From contig NZ_CP029187.1 of the NCBI RefSeq assembly GCF_003097535.1, forward strand, positions 2,976,001 through 3,040,000: DNA of 64,000 bases, in the 5' to 3' direction. The translations under genes and the position numbers were made by a program. Positions 31,528 to 55,822 of the stretch are shown one piece after another (within the stretch, counting starts at the first letter, position 1; every line of letters begins with the position of its first letter). The stretch comes from Flavobacterium pallidum. GTDB taxonomy: Bacteria > Bacteroidota > Bacteroidia > Flavobacteriales > Flavobacteriaceae. Under the pieces are notes generated by a model, which saw nothing but the letters and a program-made list of their open reading frames with translations, made no database searches and was not told the DNA's origin.

Positions 31528-31544
31528 GTGGTTGTATTGTGCGG

Positions 31545-31572
31545 CAAATTTACAAAGTTTAGAGGGCTACAA
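31545..31572 (-). promoter_or_regulatory. Bacteroidota-type promoter of the HAD gene
   Basis: On the minus strand TTG is followed after 17 bases by TAAATTTG, 17 bases from the start codon. Both boxes and the spacing fit the -33/-7 consensus of Bacteroidota sigma factor. Confidence 0.7.
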
Positions 31573-31659
31573 ATCATTTTCACAAAAAGATAACATGCCG
31601 TTTGAAAGGCCATTAAACTATTTGGATTAACTTTAGTCAGAAACACAAAAAATTGACTT

Positions 31660-47572: not shown

Positions 47573-49345
47573 TTATTTCTCTCCTTTTTCCATCTTCGCT
47601 TTCAATTCAGCAAGAATGTCGTTGTTGTCACCTAACGTAGATGCAGAAGCATTGTTATTGTTAGAAGTAACAGCGTCGCTGGCCGCTTTCGCGTTTTTCT
47701 CTTCTTCCTCACGGAAGATAGCAGTATGCGAAGCTACAACCCTCTTAAATTCCTTATTGAACTCGATTACCTTGAAATCAGCTACTTCGCCTTTTTTCAA
47801 TTTCTTTCCGTCTTCTTTCTCAAGGTGACGTGAAGGGATGAAAGCAACGATATCGTCTCCGAATTCTACAGTAGCGCCTTTGTCAACGATTTCTGAGATG
47901 GTCCCGTTATGAACGGTGCCCACTGCGAAGGAATCCTCATACTTATCCCAAGGGTTGGCCTGGGTTTGTTTGTGGCCCAAAGATAGTTTACGTCCGTCAA
48001 CATCAAGTTCAAGTACTACAACCTCAAGTTTTTCGCCAACGCTAACAAACTCAGATGGGTGTTTGATTTTCTTAGTCCATGACAAATCAGAGATGTAAAT
48101 TAAACCATCAATTCCTTCTTCCAATTCTACGAATACACCGAAGTTGGTGAAGTTACGAACGATTCCTGTGTGCTTGGAACCTACAGGGTATTTAGAAGTG
48201 ATATCAGTCCATGGATCCTGTGACAGTTGCTTGATGCCTAAGGACATCTTACGGTCTTCACGGTCCAAAGTAAGGATAACTGCCTCTACAGTATCACCAA
48301 CTTTTACGAAATCCTGAGCCGAACGCAGGTGCGTAGACCATGACATTTCAGATACGTGGATTAAACCTTCAACACCTTCAGCTACTTCGATAAATGCACC
48401 GTAATCAGCGATAACGACTACCTTACCTTTTACTTTATCACCTACTTTCAGGTTAGCATCAAGCGCATCCCATGGGTGTGCGTTCAATTGCTTAAGACCC
48501 AATTGGATTCTTGTTTTCTCATCATCGAAATCAAGGATTACCACGTTCAGTTTCTGATCTAATTCAAGAACTTCGCTTGGGTGGTTGATACGTGACCATG
48601 AAAGGTCAGTGATGTGGATCAATCCGTCAACACCTCCAAGGTCGATGAATACTCCGTAAGAAGTGATGTTTTTCACAACGCCTTCAAGTACCTGTCCTTT
48701 TTGCAATTGACCGATAATTTCTTTTTTCTGTACTTCAATATCCGCTTCGATAAGCGCTTTGTGAGAAACCACTACGTTTTTGAATTCGTGGTTGATTTTC
48801 ACTACTTTGAATTCCATCATCTTGTTTACATACTGATCGTAATCACGGATTGGTTTTACGTCAATTTGTGAACCCGGAAGGAAAGCCTCAATTCCGAAAA
48901 CGTCAACGATCATACCGCCTTTAGTCCTGCATTTTACAAAACCGTTTACGATTTCTCCTGTTTCGTTTGCGTTGATTACGCGATCCCATGCTTTGATCGT
49001 ACGTGCTTTTCTGTGCGAAAGAACCAACTGACCTGTTTTGTCCTCACGGATGTCAATCAATACTTCTACTTTGTCACCTACTTTCAGGTTTGGATTGTAA
49101 CGGAATTCGTTCAAAGAGATAACTCCTTCAGATTTCGCGTTGATGTCAACAATAGCGTCACGGTCAGTGATCCTTACTACAACACCTTCCACTACTTCTT
49201 CCTGATCTGTTGAGATGAAAGTCTTGTCTACCAATTCTTCGAATTCCTGTAGGTTTTTTTCGTCAACAGCATCAATTCCTTCCTGGAAGTTGTGCCAGTT
49301 AAAGTTCTCTAAAAATTCCGCTTGTGTTTTTGTTTGTTCAGACAT
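47573..49345 (-). CDS. rpsA: 30S ribosomal protein S1
   Basis: A 590-residue S1 protein with about six S1 RNA-binding repeats. Visible repeat starts: VEGVVVRITDRDAIVDI, GEIVNGFVKCRTKGGMIVDVFG, GQVLEGVVKNITSYGVFIDLGG, KVKGKVVVIADYGAFIEVAEG, KHTGIVRNFTNFGVFVELEEG, and VHNGTISEIVDKGATVEF. The first two are divergent, as in other bacteria. S1 helps mRNA bind the 30S subunit. The end is a low-complexity Asn/Ser/Ala stretch, then ILAELKAKMEKGEK. A strong promoter lies 115 bases upstream. In Bacteroidota, which rarely use Shine-Dalgarno pairing, S1 is an important element of initiation. Confidence 0.97.
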   Translation of the reverse strand: MSEQTKTQAEFLENFNWHNFQEGIDAVDEKNLQEFEELVDKTFISTDQEEVVEGVVVRITDRDAIVDINAKSEGVISLNEFRYNPNLKVGDKVEVLIDIREDKTGQLVLSHRKARTIKAWDRVINANETGEIVNGFVKCRTKGGMIVDVFGIEAFLPGSQIDVKPIRDYDQYVNKMMEFKVVKINHEFKNVVVSHKALIEADIEVQKKEIIGQLQKGQVLEGVVKNITSYGVFIDLGGVDGLIHITDLSWSRINHPSEVLELDQKLNVVILDFDDEKTRIQLGLKQLNAHPWDALDANLKVGDKVKGKVVVIADYGAFIEVAEGVEGLIHVSEMSWSTHLRSAQDFVKVGDTVEAVILTLDREDRKMSLGIKQLSQDPWTDITSKYPVGSKHTGIVRNFTNFGVFVELEEGIDGLIYISDLSWTKKIKHPSEFVSVGEKLEVVVLELDVDGRKLSLGHKQTQANPWDKYEDSFAVGTVHNGTISEIVDKGATVEFGDDIVAFIPSRHLEKEDGKKLKKGEVADFKVIEFNKEFKRVVASHTAIFREEEEKNAKAASDAVTSNNNNASASTLGDNNDILAELKAKMEKGEK

Positions 49346-49490: not shown

Positions 49491-49580
49491 ATAGTTGGAT
49501 ATTCAAATACGCTAAAATTTACTTAAAATGAAAATATGGATTTTCAGGAGCATTACGACGGAACTTCTCAGGATTCATCT

Positions 49581-49648
49581 GCCCGCTGTCCGCTATATCT
49601 TTTCTGGCTAAAGAAGCCATAAAAAGGATGCCGCTTCCATCGGGGCTA
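49581..49648 (+). repeat. Structured repeat, copy X
   Basis: Plus-strand reading: CTGTCCGCTATATC, then a stem CTTTTC-TGGCT / AGCCA-TAAAAAG around a 5-base loop (49599-49626), then GGATGCCGCTTCCATC (GATG/CATC hairpin). Copy Y at 53143-53265 has the same fixed parts, but its central stem differs and still pairs. Copy X also has a repeat of AGGATGCCGC soon after (49649-49658). The left arm with GGCGTGCCC is not recognisable here. Confidence 0.65.
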
Positions 49649-49670
49649 GGATGCCGCACTGTACTCCTAT

Positions 49671-49714
49671 CAAATAAGAAACCCTTTCGTTTCAAGGAAA
49701 GGGCTTCTTATTTG
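49671..49714 (-). terminator. Long hairpin terminator of the nucleoside transporter gene
   Basis: CAAATAAGAA-A-CCCTTTC and GAAAGGG-C-TTCTTATTTG pair over 18 positions with one mismatch, around a short loop. It ends 4 bases before the stop codon of the transporter. Confidence 0.85.
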
Positions 49715-49717
49715 ATA

Positions 49718-50971
49718 TTAATGCGCTATCTCCGCCACATCTTCCGGCACGTGCTTATGCTTGAACATCAATCCAAACAAAACAGCGATCACCAAAGCAT
49801 AACCTGCAAATGAAAGCCAGATGTTATGCCAGTCCCTCGCGCCATCGTGGGTGAAATAAGTATCGATCACATAACCGCTGATCAATCCGCCAAAGAAGGC
49901 ACCAAATCCGTTGGACATCATCATAAATAATCCCTGGGCTGAAGAACGGATTTTGGAATCGGTAGTCGTTTCTACAAACAGTGATCCCGAGATATTGAAG
50001 AAATCGAATGCCATTCCGTAAACGATACACGACAATACGATCATCCACAATCCATCGGCAGGATTTCCGTACGCAAACAAACCGAAACGCAATACCCAGG
50101 CAAACATCGAAATCAGCATCACGCGCTTGATTCCAAACCGTTTCAAAAAGAAAGGAATCGCAAGGATAAACAAGGTTTCTGAAATCTGCGAAATAGACAT
50201 AATCAACGTTGATTTCTTTACGATGATACTTTCCGCATATTCCGGCATTTTCCCGAACTCGGAAAGGAATACGTCACCATACATATTGGTCAATTGCAGC
50301 GCAGCCCCTAAGAACATTGAAAACATAAAGAACAACGCCATTTTATAAGTCCCGAACAATTTGAAGGCATCCAGTCCCAGTTTCTGAGCTAAAGTAGCAT
50401 TCTCAGAAATCAGTTTTTGCGGCGGGCATTTGGGCAGACTGAAAGAATAAATTCCAAGTGCAATGGCGGCTACAGCGGCAATGTAGAACATATTGGCAGA
50501 CGCTTTATTGTCGGTTAAATTGGTCAGCCACATAGCCGCAATGAAACCAACCGTTCCCCAAACCCTGATGGGTGGAAACACTTTTATCACATCGTACTGA
50601 TTGTTTTTCAGCACATTGTATGCTACCGAATTCGAAAGTGAAATCGTTGGCATATAACATAGCATTGCTGCAAATATAACCCAGTAAAACGTTGTTGGAT
50701 CCTGAACCTGCGGAATGTAAAATAAGGCGACCCCGCCAAGGATGTGAAGTATGCCGTAAAGTTTTTCGGCATTAATCCATTTGTCTGCAATTATCCCTGT
50801 GATAGCAGGCATGATGATAGATGATAATCCAAGTGTGGAAAAAATCGCCCCAAATTGCTCACCACTCCATTGTTTGGTAGCAAACCAGTAATTCCCGACA
50901 GTAATCAGCCACGCTCCCCAAACAAAAAACTGCAGGAAGCTCATGGCCGTAAGCCTAAATTTTATACTCAT
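49718..50971 (-). CDS. Nucleoside:H+ symporter (NHS/NupG family MFS)
   Basis: A 417-residue membrane protein of the major facilitator superfamily with about 12 hydrophobic segments. The beginning FRLTAMSFLQFFVWGAWLIT, then KQWSGEQFGAIFSTLGLSSI and ISNSVAYNV-like CYMPTISLSNSVAYNVL are typical of the nucleoside:proton symporter family (PF03825). The C-terminal HKHVPEDVAEIAH is soluble and acidic. It would import nucleosides. It is a single gene closed by a long hairpin; no nucleoside-use gene other than cmk is near. Confidence 0.87.
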   Translation of the reverse strand: MSIKFRLTAMSFLQFFVWGAWLITVGNYWFATKQWSGEQFGAIFSTLGLSSIIMPAITGIIADKWINAEKLYGILHILGGVALFYIPQVQDPTTFYWVIFAAMLCYMPTISLSNSVAYNVLKNNQYDVIKVFPPIRVWGTVGFIAAMWLTNLTDNKASANMFYIAAVAAIALGIYSFSLPKCPPQKLISENATLAQKLGLDAFKLFGTYKMALFFMFSMFLGAALQLTNMYGDVFLSEFGKMPEYAESIIVKKSTLIMSISQISETLFILAIPFFLKRFGIKRVMLISMFAWVLRFGLFAYGNPADGLWMIVLSCIVYGMAFDFFNISGSLFVETTTDSKIRSSAQGLFMMMSNGFGAFFGGLISGYVIDTYFTHDGARDWHNIWLSFAGYALVIAVLFGLMFKHKHVPEDVAEIAH

Positions 50972-51042: not shown

Positions 51043-51145
51043 AATTAGAAAATGTGGCAATTAGAAAATGAGATAATGAATAGGGGATCGATAAAATTAT
51101 GCGCTTTTTATTGACAACGAATCGCATTATCTAATTATCTAATTC
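51043..51145. repeat. AT-rich aattagataatt hairpin tract at the cmk 3' end
   Basis: aattagaaaatgagataatg (about 51059-51078) faces cattatctaattatctaatt (51126-51144). The right arm runs into the cmk gene and forms its stop codon and last codons. A related tract lies at the lon 3' end (53334-53377). Confidence 0.5.
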
Positions 51146-51817
51146 CTTAACGAGTCCGAGTACCGTTTCGAATTGCTCCTCCCGCGTCAAATCCGAATTG
51201 TCAATCTCATAAGCCCCATCCGCCTTTACCAATGGGGAATCGTCACGGTGGGTATCAATATAATCGCGCTCTTCAACGTTTTTGAGGACTTCGTCATAAG
51301 AAACGCTGTCGCCTTTGGCTTTGAGTTCGTCATACCGCCTCTGCGCGCGGGTGGCGGCGCTGGCAGTCATGAATATCTTCAATTCGGCATCGGGAAAAAC
51401 AACGGTTCCGATATCACGGCCATCCATTACGATGCCTTTGTCTTTGCCCATTTGTTGCTGTTGCTCGACCAGTTTGGCACGAACTTCAGAAACTTCGGCA
51501 ACCTTGCTCACAAATCCCGACACTTCAATCGTACGGATTTCCTTTTCAACATTGACATCGTTCAAATACATTTCACCAAACCCCAATTCCGCATTGAAAA
51601 CAAAATGAAGCTTAATATACGGAAGGCTCGCAATCAAAGTGTCCTTATCAAAAAATTCCTTGTCTATATAACCATTCTGCATCGCGAAATAAGCCACTGC
51701 GCGATACATCGCACCCGTATCGACATAAACATAGCCCAAATGTTTCGCGAGCTGTTTTGCAATAGTACTTTTTCCGGTGGATGAGAAGCCGTCAATGGCG
51801 ATGGTGATTTTTTTCAT
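51131..51817 (-). CDS. cmk: Cytidylate kinase
   Basis: A 228-residue kinase phosphorylating CMP/dCMP. It starts MKKITIAIDGFSSTGKSTIA (P-loop GFSSTGKST); a 5-residue longer reading from the upstream Met is less likely. Other features: the CMP-binding YVDTGAMYRAVAYFA, GIVMDGRDIGTVVFPDAELK and RAQRRYDELKAKG. Length is usual. The last residues (KELDN) are encoded inside the AT-rich repeat tract at 51126-51145. A -7 box candidate (TAACTTTG, 51847-51854 minus strand) is upstream. Confidence 0.95.
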   Translation of the reverse strand: MKKITIAIDGFSSTGKSTIAKQLAKHLGYVYVDTGAMYRAVAYFAMQNGYIDKEFFDKDTLIASLPYIKLHFVFNAELGFGEMYLNDVNVEKEIRTIEVSGFVSKVAEVSEVRAKLVEQQQQMGKDKGIVMDGRDIGTVVFPDAELKIFMTASAATRAQRRYDELKAKGDSVSYDEVLKNVEERDYIDTHRDDSPLVKADGAYEIDNSDLTREEQFETVLGLVKELDN

Positions 51818-53142: not shown

Positions 53143-53265
53143 GGGCGTGCCCTCGTTGCGGAAATTATAGACATACATCGGAAGTCTTTCCTGCAACGAG
53201 GCCGGGCTGTCCGCTTTATCTTTTTCTAACCCCCCGGGATTAGAAAAAGGATGCCGCTTCCATCC
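53143..53265 (+). repeat. Structured repeat, copy Y (fullest copy)
   Basis: Plus-strand order: GGGCGTGCC, stem CCTCGTTGC (53151-53159) pairing with GCAACGAGG (53193-53201), then CCGGGCTGTCCGCTTTATC, a perfect 10-bp stem CTTTTTCTAA / TTAGAAAAAG (53220-53229 and 53240-53249), then GGATGCCGCTTCCATCC (GGATG/CATCC). Compared with copy X the fixed parts match and the central stem is different but still pairs. Confidence 0.8.
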
Positions 53266-53306
53266 CTCACGCAGAATACCCAAAAATTAACGAATCATTT
53301 CCAATG

Positions 53307-53330
53307 AAAAAAGCCGGAAATACTTCCGGC
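53307..53330 (-). terminator. Terminator of lon
   Basis: GCCGGAA / TTCCGGC form a 7-bp stem with a 4-base loop, and an A-run before it gives T's on the minus strand. It lies 45 bases past the lon stop. Confidence 0.85.
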
Positions 53331-53333
53331 CTG

Positions 53334-53377
53334 ATTATCTAATTTTCTAATTATCGGATTGTCTAATTATCTAATTA
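53334..53377. repeat. AT-rich ctaattatctaatt tract at the lon 3' end
   Basis: Several partial copies of tctaattatctaatt run from the terminator into the lon stop codon. The same unit occurs in the cmk 3' tract (51126-51145). Confidence 0.5.
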
Positions 53378-55822
53378 CAAAGTCTTCGCATGCTTCACCT
53401 TCTCATCCAGAATCGCAATCTTCAGCACCTCGCTCATTTCCTTAACATAATGAAAGGTCAGCCCTTCAATATAAGTCTTGTTGATCTCCTCAACATCGCT
53501 TTGATTGTCGGCACACATAATGATTTCCTTAATGTTGGCACGTTTGGCCGCAAGGATTTTTTCTTTGATTCCGCCCACAGGCAGCACTTTGCCGCGAAGC
53601 GTAATCTCGCCTGTCATCGCAAGGTTTTTCCTGATTTTATGCTGCGTCAGCACCGATACCAACGATGTCAGCATGGCAATTCCCGCACTTGGCCCGTCTT
53701 TCGGCGTGGCACCTTCCGGAATATGGATGTGCAGGTTGTATTTCGGCAGGATTTCAGGGTCAATGCCCAGCCTGTCCGCATTAGCTTTGATGTATTCAAG
53801 TGCAATCGTCGCCGATTCTTTCATCACCGTCCCTAAGTTACCGGTCATCGTCATAGAACCTTTCCCTTTGGAAATCAGCGATTCAATGAATAATATATCA
53901 CCTCCAACACTCGTCCAGGCCAATCCTGTCACCACTCCGGCCACATCATTGCTTTCTGACTTATCGCGGTGGAGTTTCGGTGCGCCCAGGATTTGCACAA
54001 CGTCAGCATCTGTAACCTTGATATTGTAATCTTCTTCCATCGCAACCGATTTTGCCGCATGTCGGATCACCTGTGCAATCTTATTCTCAAGGTTCCTGAC
54101 ACCGGATTCACGGGTATAGCCTTCTATGATTTTTTCGAGTTGCTTCTTGCCAATAGAAAGTTGTTTGGCCGTCAATCCATGTGCCGTAAGTTGCTTCGGG
54201 AACAAATGGTTCCTGGCAATCTCCACCTTTTCCTCGATCGTATATCCTGACATTTTGATGACTTCCATCCTGTCGCGCAAAGCGGGCTGGATGGCACTTA
54301 AATTATTGGAAGTGGCGATGAACATGATTTTTGACAAATCATAACCCATCTCAAGGAAATTATCATAAAATTCGCTGTTCTGTTCCGGATCCAAGACCTC
54401 CAGCAACGCCGAAGACGGATCGCCCTGATTGCTGTTCGACAACTTATCAATCTCATCCAGAACGAAAACCGGATTCGAAGTTCCTGCCTTCTTAATGCTT
54501 TGGATAATTCGGCCAGGCATAGCCCCAATATAAGTTTTCCTGTGCCCGCGGATTTCCGCCTCATCACGCAAACCGCCCAGTGAGATACGCACATATTCCC
54601 TGCCCAAAGCTTCGGCCACAGATTTCCCGATTGAGGTCTTCCCTACTCCGGGAGGCCCTGTAAGGCAAAGTATAGGCGATTTCATATCGTTGCGCAGTTT
54701 CAGGACGGCAAGGTGTTCGATCATTCTCTTTTTAACATCATCCAACCCAAAATGGTCGCGGTCCAGAACCTGCTGCGCGCGCTTCAAATCAAAATTATCT
54801 TTTGAGAATTCATTCCAAGGCAATTCGAGGAACAACTCAAGGTAATTTCTTTGGATCCCGAAATCAGGCGCCTGCGGATTCATACGCTGCATTTTCGACA
54901 ATTCCTTATCAAAATGCTTTTGTGTCTTTTCATCCCATTTTTTGGCTTTCGCCTTTTGGCGCATGTCGTCAATTTCCTCTTCCTGTGAAACACCGCCCAG
55001 TTCTTCCTGGATGGTTTTCATCTGCTGGTGCAGGAAATATTCGCGCTGCTGCTGGTCAAGGTCAAAACGCACTTTCGACTGGATGTCGTTCTTAAGTTCG
55101 AGTTTCTGCAATTCAATATTCATGAACCTCAACGTGGCAAGGGCGCGGTCCTTGAGGTTATTCATCGCAAGTAAATCCTGCTTTTCCCTTACCGAAAGGT
55201 TCATGTTCGATGAAACAAAATTCACCAGAAACGACTGACTTTCAATATTTTTTATAGCAAAAGTCGCTTCAGTAGGGATATTCGGGCTTTCCTGGATAAT
55301 CTGTGTGGCCAATTCCTTCAAAGAATCGATAATCGCTGAAAATTCCTTTTCTCCTTTTTTAGGGCGTTTTTCAGGAACCTCCTTGATGTTGGCCTTTAGA
55401 TATGGTAATTCCGTGACCGTCTCAATCTCAAAACGCTTTTTACCCTGAAGGATTACGGTGACATTCCCGTCAGGCATTTTAAGTACGCGGAGTATTTTGG
55501 CTACCGTTCCGATGGTATTGATATCGACAGAAGTGGGATCCTCAATTTCCTCATTGATTTGCGACACCACACCGATGATTTTATCGCTGTTATTCGCATC
55601 GTTAATTAACCTGATGGATTTATCCCTGCCCGCTGTGATGGGGATCACGACTCCTGGGAAAAGGACCGTGTTCCGTAATGGCAGGATGGGCAATGATGAG
55701 GGAAGTTCCTCATTGGCCATTTCCTCTTCATCTTCGGCGGTTAACAGGGGGATCAGATCTGCTTCAGAGTCTAAATCCTGAAGTGACAAATTGTCAAGTG
55801 TAGTAATTTTTTGGCTGGACAT
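53375..55822 (-). CDS. lon: ATP-dependent protease Lon (endopeptidase La)
   Basis: An 815-residue Lon protease. The N-terminal LAN domain is at about residues 40-235, beginning [19 protein letters not shown]; the AAA+ ATPase has Walker [20 protein letters not shown] and Walker B DEIDKLS; the proteolytic domain carries the catalytic Ser in [11 protein letters not shown] and Lys in [16 protein letters not shown]. It degrades misfolded and regulatory proteins. Length is typical. The gene leads a lon-porQ-cmk run on the minus strand, although each has its own termination or repeat elements between. A -7 box (TAAATTTG, 55869-55876) is 46 bases upstream. Confidence 0.97.

Follow-up and report, generated by a model that had tools for sequence, protein, structure and literature searches.

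The closest described system is the Flavo-1 motif (RF01705; Weinberg et al. 2010, PMC2864571), which the accessible part of the table in that paper enters as RNA 'y', cis-regulatory 'n' and switch 'n'. In the available excerpt of an F. psychrophilum transcriptome study (PMC9723704), matches lie sense or antisense indistinctly and many fall outside transcribed regions. The available portion of a review of the most abundant small RNAs (PMC9029176) lists Flavo-1 as known from homology searches only, with no function entered. The accessible text of these three papers gives Flavo-1 neither a function nor the label of a DNA repeat, and none of the entries listed by a wider literature search calls it one. 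REP-like sequences have been called by the thousands in two Flavobacterium species with RepRanger (PMC12306157, accessible part), and these calls may include Flavo-1.

Here, we describe two copies of Flavo-1 and place them among their homologs. As an identification this is ordinary, Flavo-1 being a family already known and functionally unexplained. New here are a branched class of the element (class II) and its reading as DNA: Flavo-1 has likely been misfiled, being a DNA element that includes a branched class, and is moderately interesting as such.

Two Flavo-1 copies in the window

The window, by which we mean the entire 64-kb stretch of Flavobacterium pallidum DNA that was analyzed, contains two Rfam matches above cut-off and no others: copies X (E 4.6e-13) and Y (E 2.3e-08). 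Both belong to the published Flavo-1 family, cover positions 1-76 of the model and exceed its gathering score of 42 bits (Table 1). The initial annotation had suggested the name Flavo-1, and cmscan against RF01705 bears this out with 69.1 and 52.0 bits. The common blocks that it had noticed, GCTGTCCGCT[A/T]TATCTTTT (95%) and AAAAAGGATGCCGCTTCCATC (100%), were found where it had put them, as were the stems CTTTTTCTAACCCC/GGGATTAGAAAAAG and CCTCGTTGCGGAAA/TTCCTGCAACGAGG, and these features go beyond chance by the Rfam E-values for the 64-kb window. The model strand of both copies is the minus strand, so that plus-strand transcripts would represent the wrong strand for the model. A 9-bp stem had also been proposed to flank Y; the stem exists but forms part of Y itself, as a second hairpin within the element that GCGTG/CACGC closes.

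Table 1. Coordinates of the two Flavo-1 copies, their parts and the neighboring hairpins in the window
Feature	Position	Strand	Remark
Copy X, Flavo-1 class I (TAGCCC-C-GAT ... AGC-G-GG)	49575..49651	-	cmscan 69.1 bits
X 5' arm TAGCCCCGATGGAAGCGGCATCC	49626..49648	-	
X terminal hairpin (variable), with a T-A pair closing the TCTTT loop	49600..49625	-	
X 3' arm GATATAGCGGACAGCGGG	49582..49599	-	
Inverted repeat directly behind the 417-aa gene 49718-50971 (-)	49668..49717	.	5' of X, outside the element
Copy Y, entire class II element (three-way junction)	53145..53272	-	Rfam covers just 53196-53277
Y main hairpin GGGATGG...ACAGCCC (Flavo-1 core)	53204..53266	-	
Y second hairpin, stem CCTCGTTGC/GCAACGAGG	53151..53201	-	same stem in copy #106 of this genome and in BFFFF1 copy B43
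Y basal stem, 5' strand GCGTG	53268..53272	-	
Y basal stem, 3' strand CACGC	53145..53149	-	
Hairpin resembling a terminator, following the 815-aa gene 53375-55822 (-)	53311..53332	-	5' of Y, outside the element

Both window copies are positioned upstream of the next gene, in sense to it. The end of X lies 230 nt ahead of the start of a 590-aa gene (47573-49345, minus strand) that, judging from its translation, we take to resemble ribosomal protein S1, and Y is flanked by what are presumably Lon-like and PorQ-like genes, again named from translations. The TCTTT loop of X is, by eye, frequent among class I copies, while its 3' foot (usually GCTCC) is unrecognizable. The inverted repeat 5' of X is perhaps the terminator of the 417-aa gene, and the terminator scan matched it on the plus strand only; terminator-like sites in the region number 5 against 4.2 expected in shuffles, hardly an excess. 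Short TTATCTAA/AATTAGAA repeats lie near both intergenic regions (51043-51152 and 53329-53376).

Copies across the genome

The window occupies C1:2976001-3040000 of a 3.55-Mb genome, which carries 115 Flavo-1 matches at E<=1, 102 of them above cut-off. The neighborhoods of 109 of the 115 copies were analyzed with genes from a home-made gene caller: 107 are intergenic, two overlap a called gene, and three lack one called neighbor. Where both neighbors were called (104 copies), 32 are codirectional with them and 36 opposite, while divergent genes flank 23 copies and convergent genes 13. A consistent sense orientation to a gene is thus absent (32 sense and 36 antisense of 68 sites), and replication-strand bias is likewise absent, with 55 and 53 among the best 108 copies when dnaA is placed at 25-1419 and the terminus is assumed opposite. 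Copies do sit close to stop codons: where a side faces a stop, the two are within 20 nt of each other in 46 of 96 cases, whereas start-facing sides come that close to a start in 13 of 115, and stop-adjacent copies present either end foremost (23/45 and 23/51).

No flank sequence common to many copies of this genome was found. Using a self-made, insensitive detector, antisense terminators within 40 nt were seen at the 3' end of 11 of 109 copies here and 10 of 76 in the related strain BFFFF1, a weak excess only over the other arrangements (3' sense 4 and 1, 5' sense 5 and 4, 5' antisense 2 and 5, respectively). Arm patterns were also searched in this genome for an autonomous version whose arms would enclose a gene, and this reading was rejected on two arms without an Rfam match. 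These, a left arm at 417985 and a right arm at 2560996, belong to variant elements with fewer than 150 nt between arms and, in one, an arm insert; further arm matches with 3 mismatches lie at 3260637 and at 1204012, 2081642 and 2158966. Two pairs of copies, #59/#80 (L057, L076) and #70/#90 (L067, L085), have 1.5-kb duplicated flanks 5' of the element, and in #59/#80 the terminal hairpins are wholly different though arms and flank agree.

Distribution in relatives and age of the sites

Flavo-1 is a family of Bacteroidetes, mainly of Flavobacteriaceae, and the nearest named relatives of this genome are Flavobacterium. Among other genomes of the genus, 34 of 36 have a match at E<=0.001, and at the level of the order 5 of 23 do. 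Matches per genome of the genus range from 0 (G018 and G020) to at least 65, and G024 and G033 each have a single match below cut-off. The nearest named relative found is Flavobacterium sp. BFFFF1, whose PorQ-like protein (in L151) is 91% identical and which has 106 Flavo-1 matches, 87 above cut-off. We examined 76 of these copies (75 above cut-off), and 28 occupy the site of a copy in this genome with both flanks conserved; a further two share only the 3' flank and one only the 5' flank, giving 31 in all. The 28 common sites indicate that many sites are old, and mobility at the present day is only putative.

Flavo-1 sites differ between related species. One BFFFF1 element has no counterpart in our window near 31528-31613, and copy #75 of this genome has none in BFFFF1. 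At the site of Y, BFFFF1 carries a degenerate relative that blastn aligns at 84% over 58 bp, without a match above cut-off in L151, and at the site of X it has nothing alignable. Comparison of this genome with BFFFF1 gave no clean empty site and no target duplication: between genes, the two have diverged too far for empty sites to mark exact insertion boundaries. Similarity of this genome to BFFFF1 breaks off at the element's 5' end in two comparisons (L042 with L221, L093 with L206), and L206 has ~541 further bases at the 3' end. Four copies in G053 (L288, L293, L297 and L303) resemble one another over the element (~85 bp) and not over the flanks, indicating that what spread in G053 was the element by itself.

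Larger repeats surround Flavo-1 elsewhere. Those in G027 (L287, L299, L302) look like rRNA-operon flanks, as judged from antisense frames, and G032 has a repeat of 330 bp (L285, L290). A blast search for carriage of X on phages or plasmids gave no match; an exact pattern match places a Flavo-1-like copy in each of four viral-labelled contigs (L271-L274).

Anatomy of the two classes

Class I elements, such as X, read TAGCCC-N-GAT-N-G-n-AGCGG ... ATCC-TTTT-[variable hairpin]-AAAA-GAT ... AGCGGA-N'-AGC-N'-GG-bulge-GCTCC, with an A-run after it: in 112 of 116, A is the third base past GCTCC. Their 5' flanks have a weak consensus only and are, by eye, not promoter-like. Class II elements, such as Y, combine a basal stem (e.g. 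GCGTG/CACGC), the core of class I with GGGAT...AGCCC at its entrance, and a second hairpin, and therefore form a three-way junction. The exact complement of an element's own basal pentamer is present in 31 of 37 class II elements, compared with 25 of 181 for swapped pentamers. The second hairpin takes a short YCC-NNN-GGN form in 22 of the 37 and is longer in the others, as in Y; 21 of the 22 short ones are capped by GNA (GCA 16, GAA 3, GGA 2) and one by ACA. Extra hairpins are possible in either arm, and a variable terminal structure sits on a conserved stem. The RF01705 consensus (76 positions) stops inside the element, and thus lacks the basal AGC/GCT of class I as well as the basal stem and second hairpin of class II.

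The elements of this genome and BFFFF1 were parsed; 165 of 185 fitted the parser and 20 did not. An automatic census of loops in the parsed elements found GNA in 8 of 43 triloops, and neither GNRA nor UNCG in 27 tetraloops; the minimum stem of 3 that it imposed confounds this census, which gives no support to GNA caps in general. A module like CCCGAGCGNAGCGAACTG (or its complement) recurs in or beside Flavo-1 arms at L025, L098, L194, L195 and L196.

Pairing is kept while sequence changes

Single copies differ in how strongly they fold. As DNA, Y folds better than 200 of 200 shuffles on the minus (z -4.56) and the plus strand (z -4.10), and X is unremarkable (z -1.37 and -0.89, respectively); the minus strand folded as RNA gives z -3.27 for Y and -0.82 for X. 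Over 47 aligned class I copies, 96.7% of 1076 cells are paired compared with 83.0 in shuffles, and 145 cells have changed on both sides compared with 41.7 in shuffles (0/500 reach this number) and 13-29 for slid partners. Column pairs with two-sided changes number 12 against 8.6 in shuffles, and further pair types show no excess (29 against 29.6; 359/500).

Among the 165 parsed elements, position 12-70 exhibits all four Watson-Crick pairs (GC 99, TA 24, CG 18, AT 10). The description of fixed loops on a changing but pairing stem, made from X and Y alone, thus extends to the class I copies and to the parsed elements: homologs exist, and they pair. Conserved within the stem are purine mismatches, counted as A.G 157, G.A 154, A.G 143 and G.A 153 by a parser that takes the best-pairing reading of each element and so lowers mismatch counts; as a consequence of these mismatches, one internal loop is mostly G-N-A on both strands (13-15, 67-69). 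In DNA, both GNA triloops and sheared G.A pairs have particular stability, and RNA too contains GNA loops and G.A pairs.

Wobble pairs bear on whether the folded molecule is DNA or RNA. The five core pairs (825 cells) comprise 786 Watson-Crick, 10 G-T, 7 A-C and 22 other combinations. In a control of 14 distinct tRNAs at the examined loci, 271 of 301 pairs are Watson-Crick, 30 are G-T and none are A-C. G-T pairs are thus fewer in the Flavo-1 core (Fisher p 2.4e-10 for G-T against Watson-Crick), with the reservation that the control is small and that ARAGORN may favor G-T over A-C. Over the whole class I stem (1076 cells), G-T occurs 23 times, 13 of them at one column pair, and A-C 4 times; this excess implies that the model strand is the folded strand and leaves room for RNA.

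Sites common to this genome and BFFFF1 show what happens to a copy after insertion. From 30 syntenic pairs, 23 were usable, as four were unparsed and three were dropped as misparsed; the weak elements dropped (own104, own107, own108) had held 12 of 16 broken positions, and own89/B24 and own61/B51 were left out as not syntenic. Across the 161 pair positions in the 23 ortholog pairs, 130 are unchanged, 24 have changed on both sides and are still Watson-Crick, 3 have changed via G-T, and 4 are broken. Changes thus mostly keep pairing, which indicates that structure is kept at a site after insertion. Ortholog arms are more alike than the mean paralog similarity in 17 of 23 only, so exchange among the copies of one genome could explain part of this pattern. 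At two conserved sites (own6/B42 and own19/B15), the terminal hairpin has been swapped for an unrelated, well-paired one, with 3' flanks hardly altered.

Leader and defense-like genes in G048

In G048, which belongs to another family of the order, Flavo-1 forms the 3' end of a ~370-bp repeat. The left part of this repeat, a leader of ~200 bp, recurs beside unrelated genes, often without Flavo-1: over half of 30 matches to the repeat lack it. All seven Flavo-1 copies of G048 overlap the repeat, and six of the seven also include the leader part. At 19 of 21 sites, the leader starts no more than ~60 nt from where an open frame (taken as the longest nearby) starts, and these frames seem unrelated to each other. 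Ten of the genes at these 21 sites were scanned, of which six look defense-like and four gave no match. PADLOC matches include a helicase, PDC-M54A, PD-T4-7 and Old/GajA, and the domains found are NB-ARC and nSTAND plus Mrr. For six G048 copies with flanking sequence, an A-run and a hairpin directly adjoin the 3' end and resemble, by eye, the facing gene's terminator. The other examined loci yielded no leader (best E 0.055), and its association with Flavo-1 may be lineage-specific.

Leader-headed single genes in G048 (L334-L345, e.g. L337 14903-17714) often stand behind housekeeping-like genes, sometimes in a row ~1 kb apart, and look like a gene-cassette system. A short reading frame through Flavo-1 in G048 was considered and dropped, because by eye the frame is not kept among copies.

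What Flavo-1 may be

The initial annotation had left a structured RNA and a palindromic mobile repeat side by side; the evidence leans to the mobile repeat, RNA being the less likely of the two. We consider Flavo-1 to be probably a dispersed, non-coding and non-autonomous DNA repeat of ~80-130 bp, REP/MITE-like, and we lean, a little less firmly, towards folded DNA rather than folded RNA. It is high-copy, intergenic and orientation-neutral, with strictly paired arms, conserved purine mismatches and freely varying terminal hairpins. The Rfam type (Gene; sRNA) would instead make each copy a structured-RNA gene in a family of trans-acting sRNAs. Strong covariation and the whole-stem excess of G-T over A-C in class I (23 against 4) agree with this, as do several F. 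psychrophilum 5' transcribed regions that coincide with matches in the accessible part of PMC9723704. Still, the same excerpt has matches that are not strand-consistent and many that are untranscribed, and 115 copies in one genome, the equal frequency of both orientations behind stop codons, a copy number of 0 to at least 65 within one genus, few G-T pairs in the core and 5' flanks that by eye do not resemble promoters make such a family unlikely. A cis-regulatory mRNA element, either a 5' UTR structure, as X before the 590-aa gene, or a 3' UTR stabilizer, would fit the sense placement of both window copies upstream of the next gene and the many copies just behind stop codons; with sense and antisense balanced genome-wide (32 against 36) and either end of stop-adjacent copies foremost (23/45 and 23/51), we regard it as quite unlikely.

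Among mobile repeats, a GTAG-type REP moved by a RAYT (Y1 transposase), possibly an extinct one, would also be high-copy, intergenic and a hairpin with mismatches, and PF01797 matches occur in 33 of 60 genomes searched. This genome has none, however, nor do G004, G029 and G030 with at least 64 Flavo-1 matches each, and G033 has a clear PF01797 (105.8 bits) yet a single sub-cut-off Flavo-1 match. There is also no conserved GTAG: of 116 class I copies, 76 carry C and 28 carry T immediately ahead of TAGCCC/CAGCCC. RAYT does not track copy number, and we reject the link as largely refuted for this genome and very improbable overall. We find it equally hard to credit that Flavo-1 is an attC-like folded attachment site of a gene-capture system with cargo genes inserted beside it. 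attC sites keep structure rather than sequence and have variable terminal structures (accessible part of PMC2727003), and in G048 the copies overlap the leader repeat (leader part in 6/7) with 6/10 leader genes defense-like. Against it stand the conservation of both sides at most sites shared with BFFFF1 (28 both, 2 only 3', 1 only 5'), the lack of a flank sequence common to many copies of this genome, class I ends in the 47-copy alignment that read TAGCCC and GCTCC instead of GTT/AAC R boxes, and the G048 leader matches, over half of 30 without Flavo-1. A broader version is a long shot: Flavo-1 as the structure-recognized ssDNA attachment site of a Flavobacteriales gene-capture or transposition machinery, with the folded site alone having spread in most Flavobacterium and, in G048-like lineages, marking the junction of insertions of single leader-bearing defense genes behind housekeeping genes.

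If Flavo-1 is a folded DNA repeat, one strand would, when single-stranded, form a long, imperfect hairpin in class I and a three-way junction in class II. The folded DNA might then be recognized by a protein of the host or of a mobile element, via the purine-purine pairs instead of the stem sequence, and this protein could copy or move the element; in this genome the putative mobilizer would not be a RAYT. Copies would survive best just behind stop codons and off promoters, and any Flavo-1 transcript would be incidental 3' UTR or antisense RNA. Such 'small RNAs' would then be mobile DNA, sRNA counts in Bacteroidetes would be inflated, and a structure-selective DNA-processing enzyme would still have to be found. 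The ~100 copies here and in BFFFF1 offer a natural set for comparing selection on folded DNA with that on folded RNA.

Comparison with known repeats and attachment sites

MITEs and ERIC/BOX-type intergenic repeats are dispersed, non-coding palindromic repeats, and in this Flavo-1 resembles them. Unlike MITEs, it shows no target duplication at the sites compared with BFFFF1, and covariation between copies is stronger than expected of decaying MITEs. The REP elements of the RAYT and CGTC types, as described in the accessible part of PMC3733652, are like Flavo-1 short, high-copy, intergenic and often downstream of genes, and they too are imperfect hairpins with variable loops. The CGTC type, which is without a dedicated transposase and has been reported from Bacteroidetes, shares this likeness, although its stem is 8-9 bp and that of Flavo-1 much longer. 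Going by the same excerpt, Flavo-1 is two to six times longer than these 20-40 bp REPs and lacks a GTAG foot, it differs from them in its conserved 3x3 purine internal loops and its branched class, and GT pairs, frequent in GTAG REP stems, are rare in its core. With respect to integron attC sites (accessible part of PMC2727003), Flavo-1 differs in that no R boxes were found at its ends and its copies are dispersed; it resembles them in holding structure over sequence, in its variable terminal structure, and in its strand-specific irregularities.
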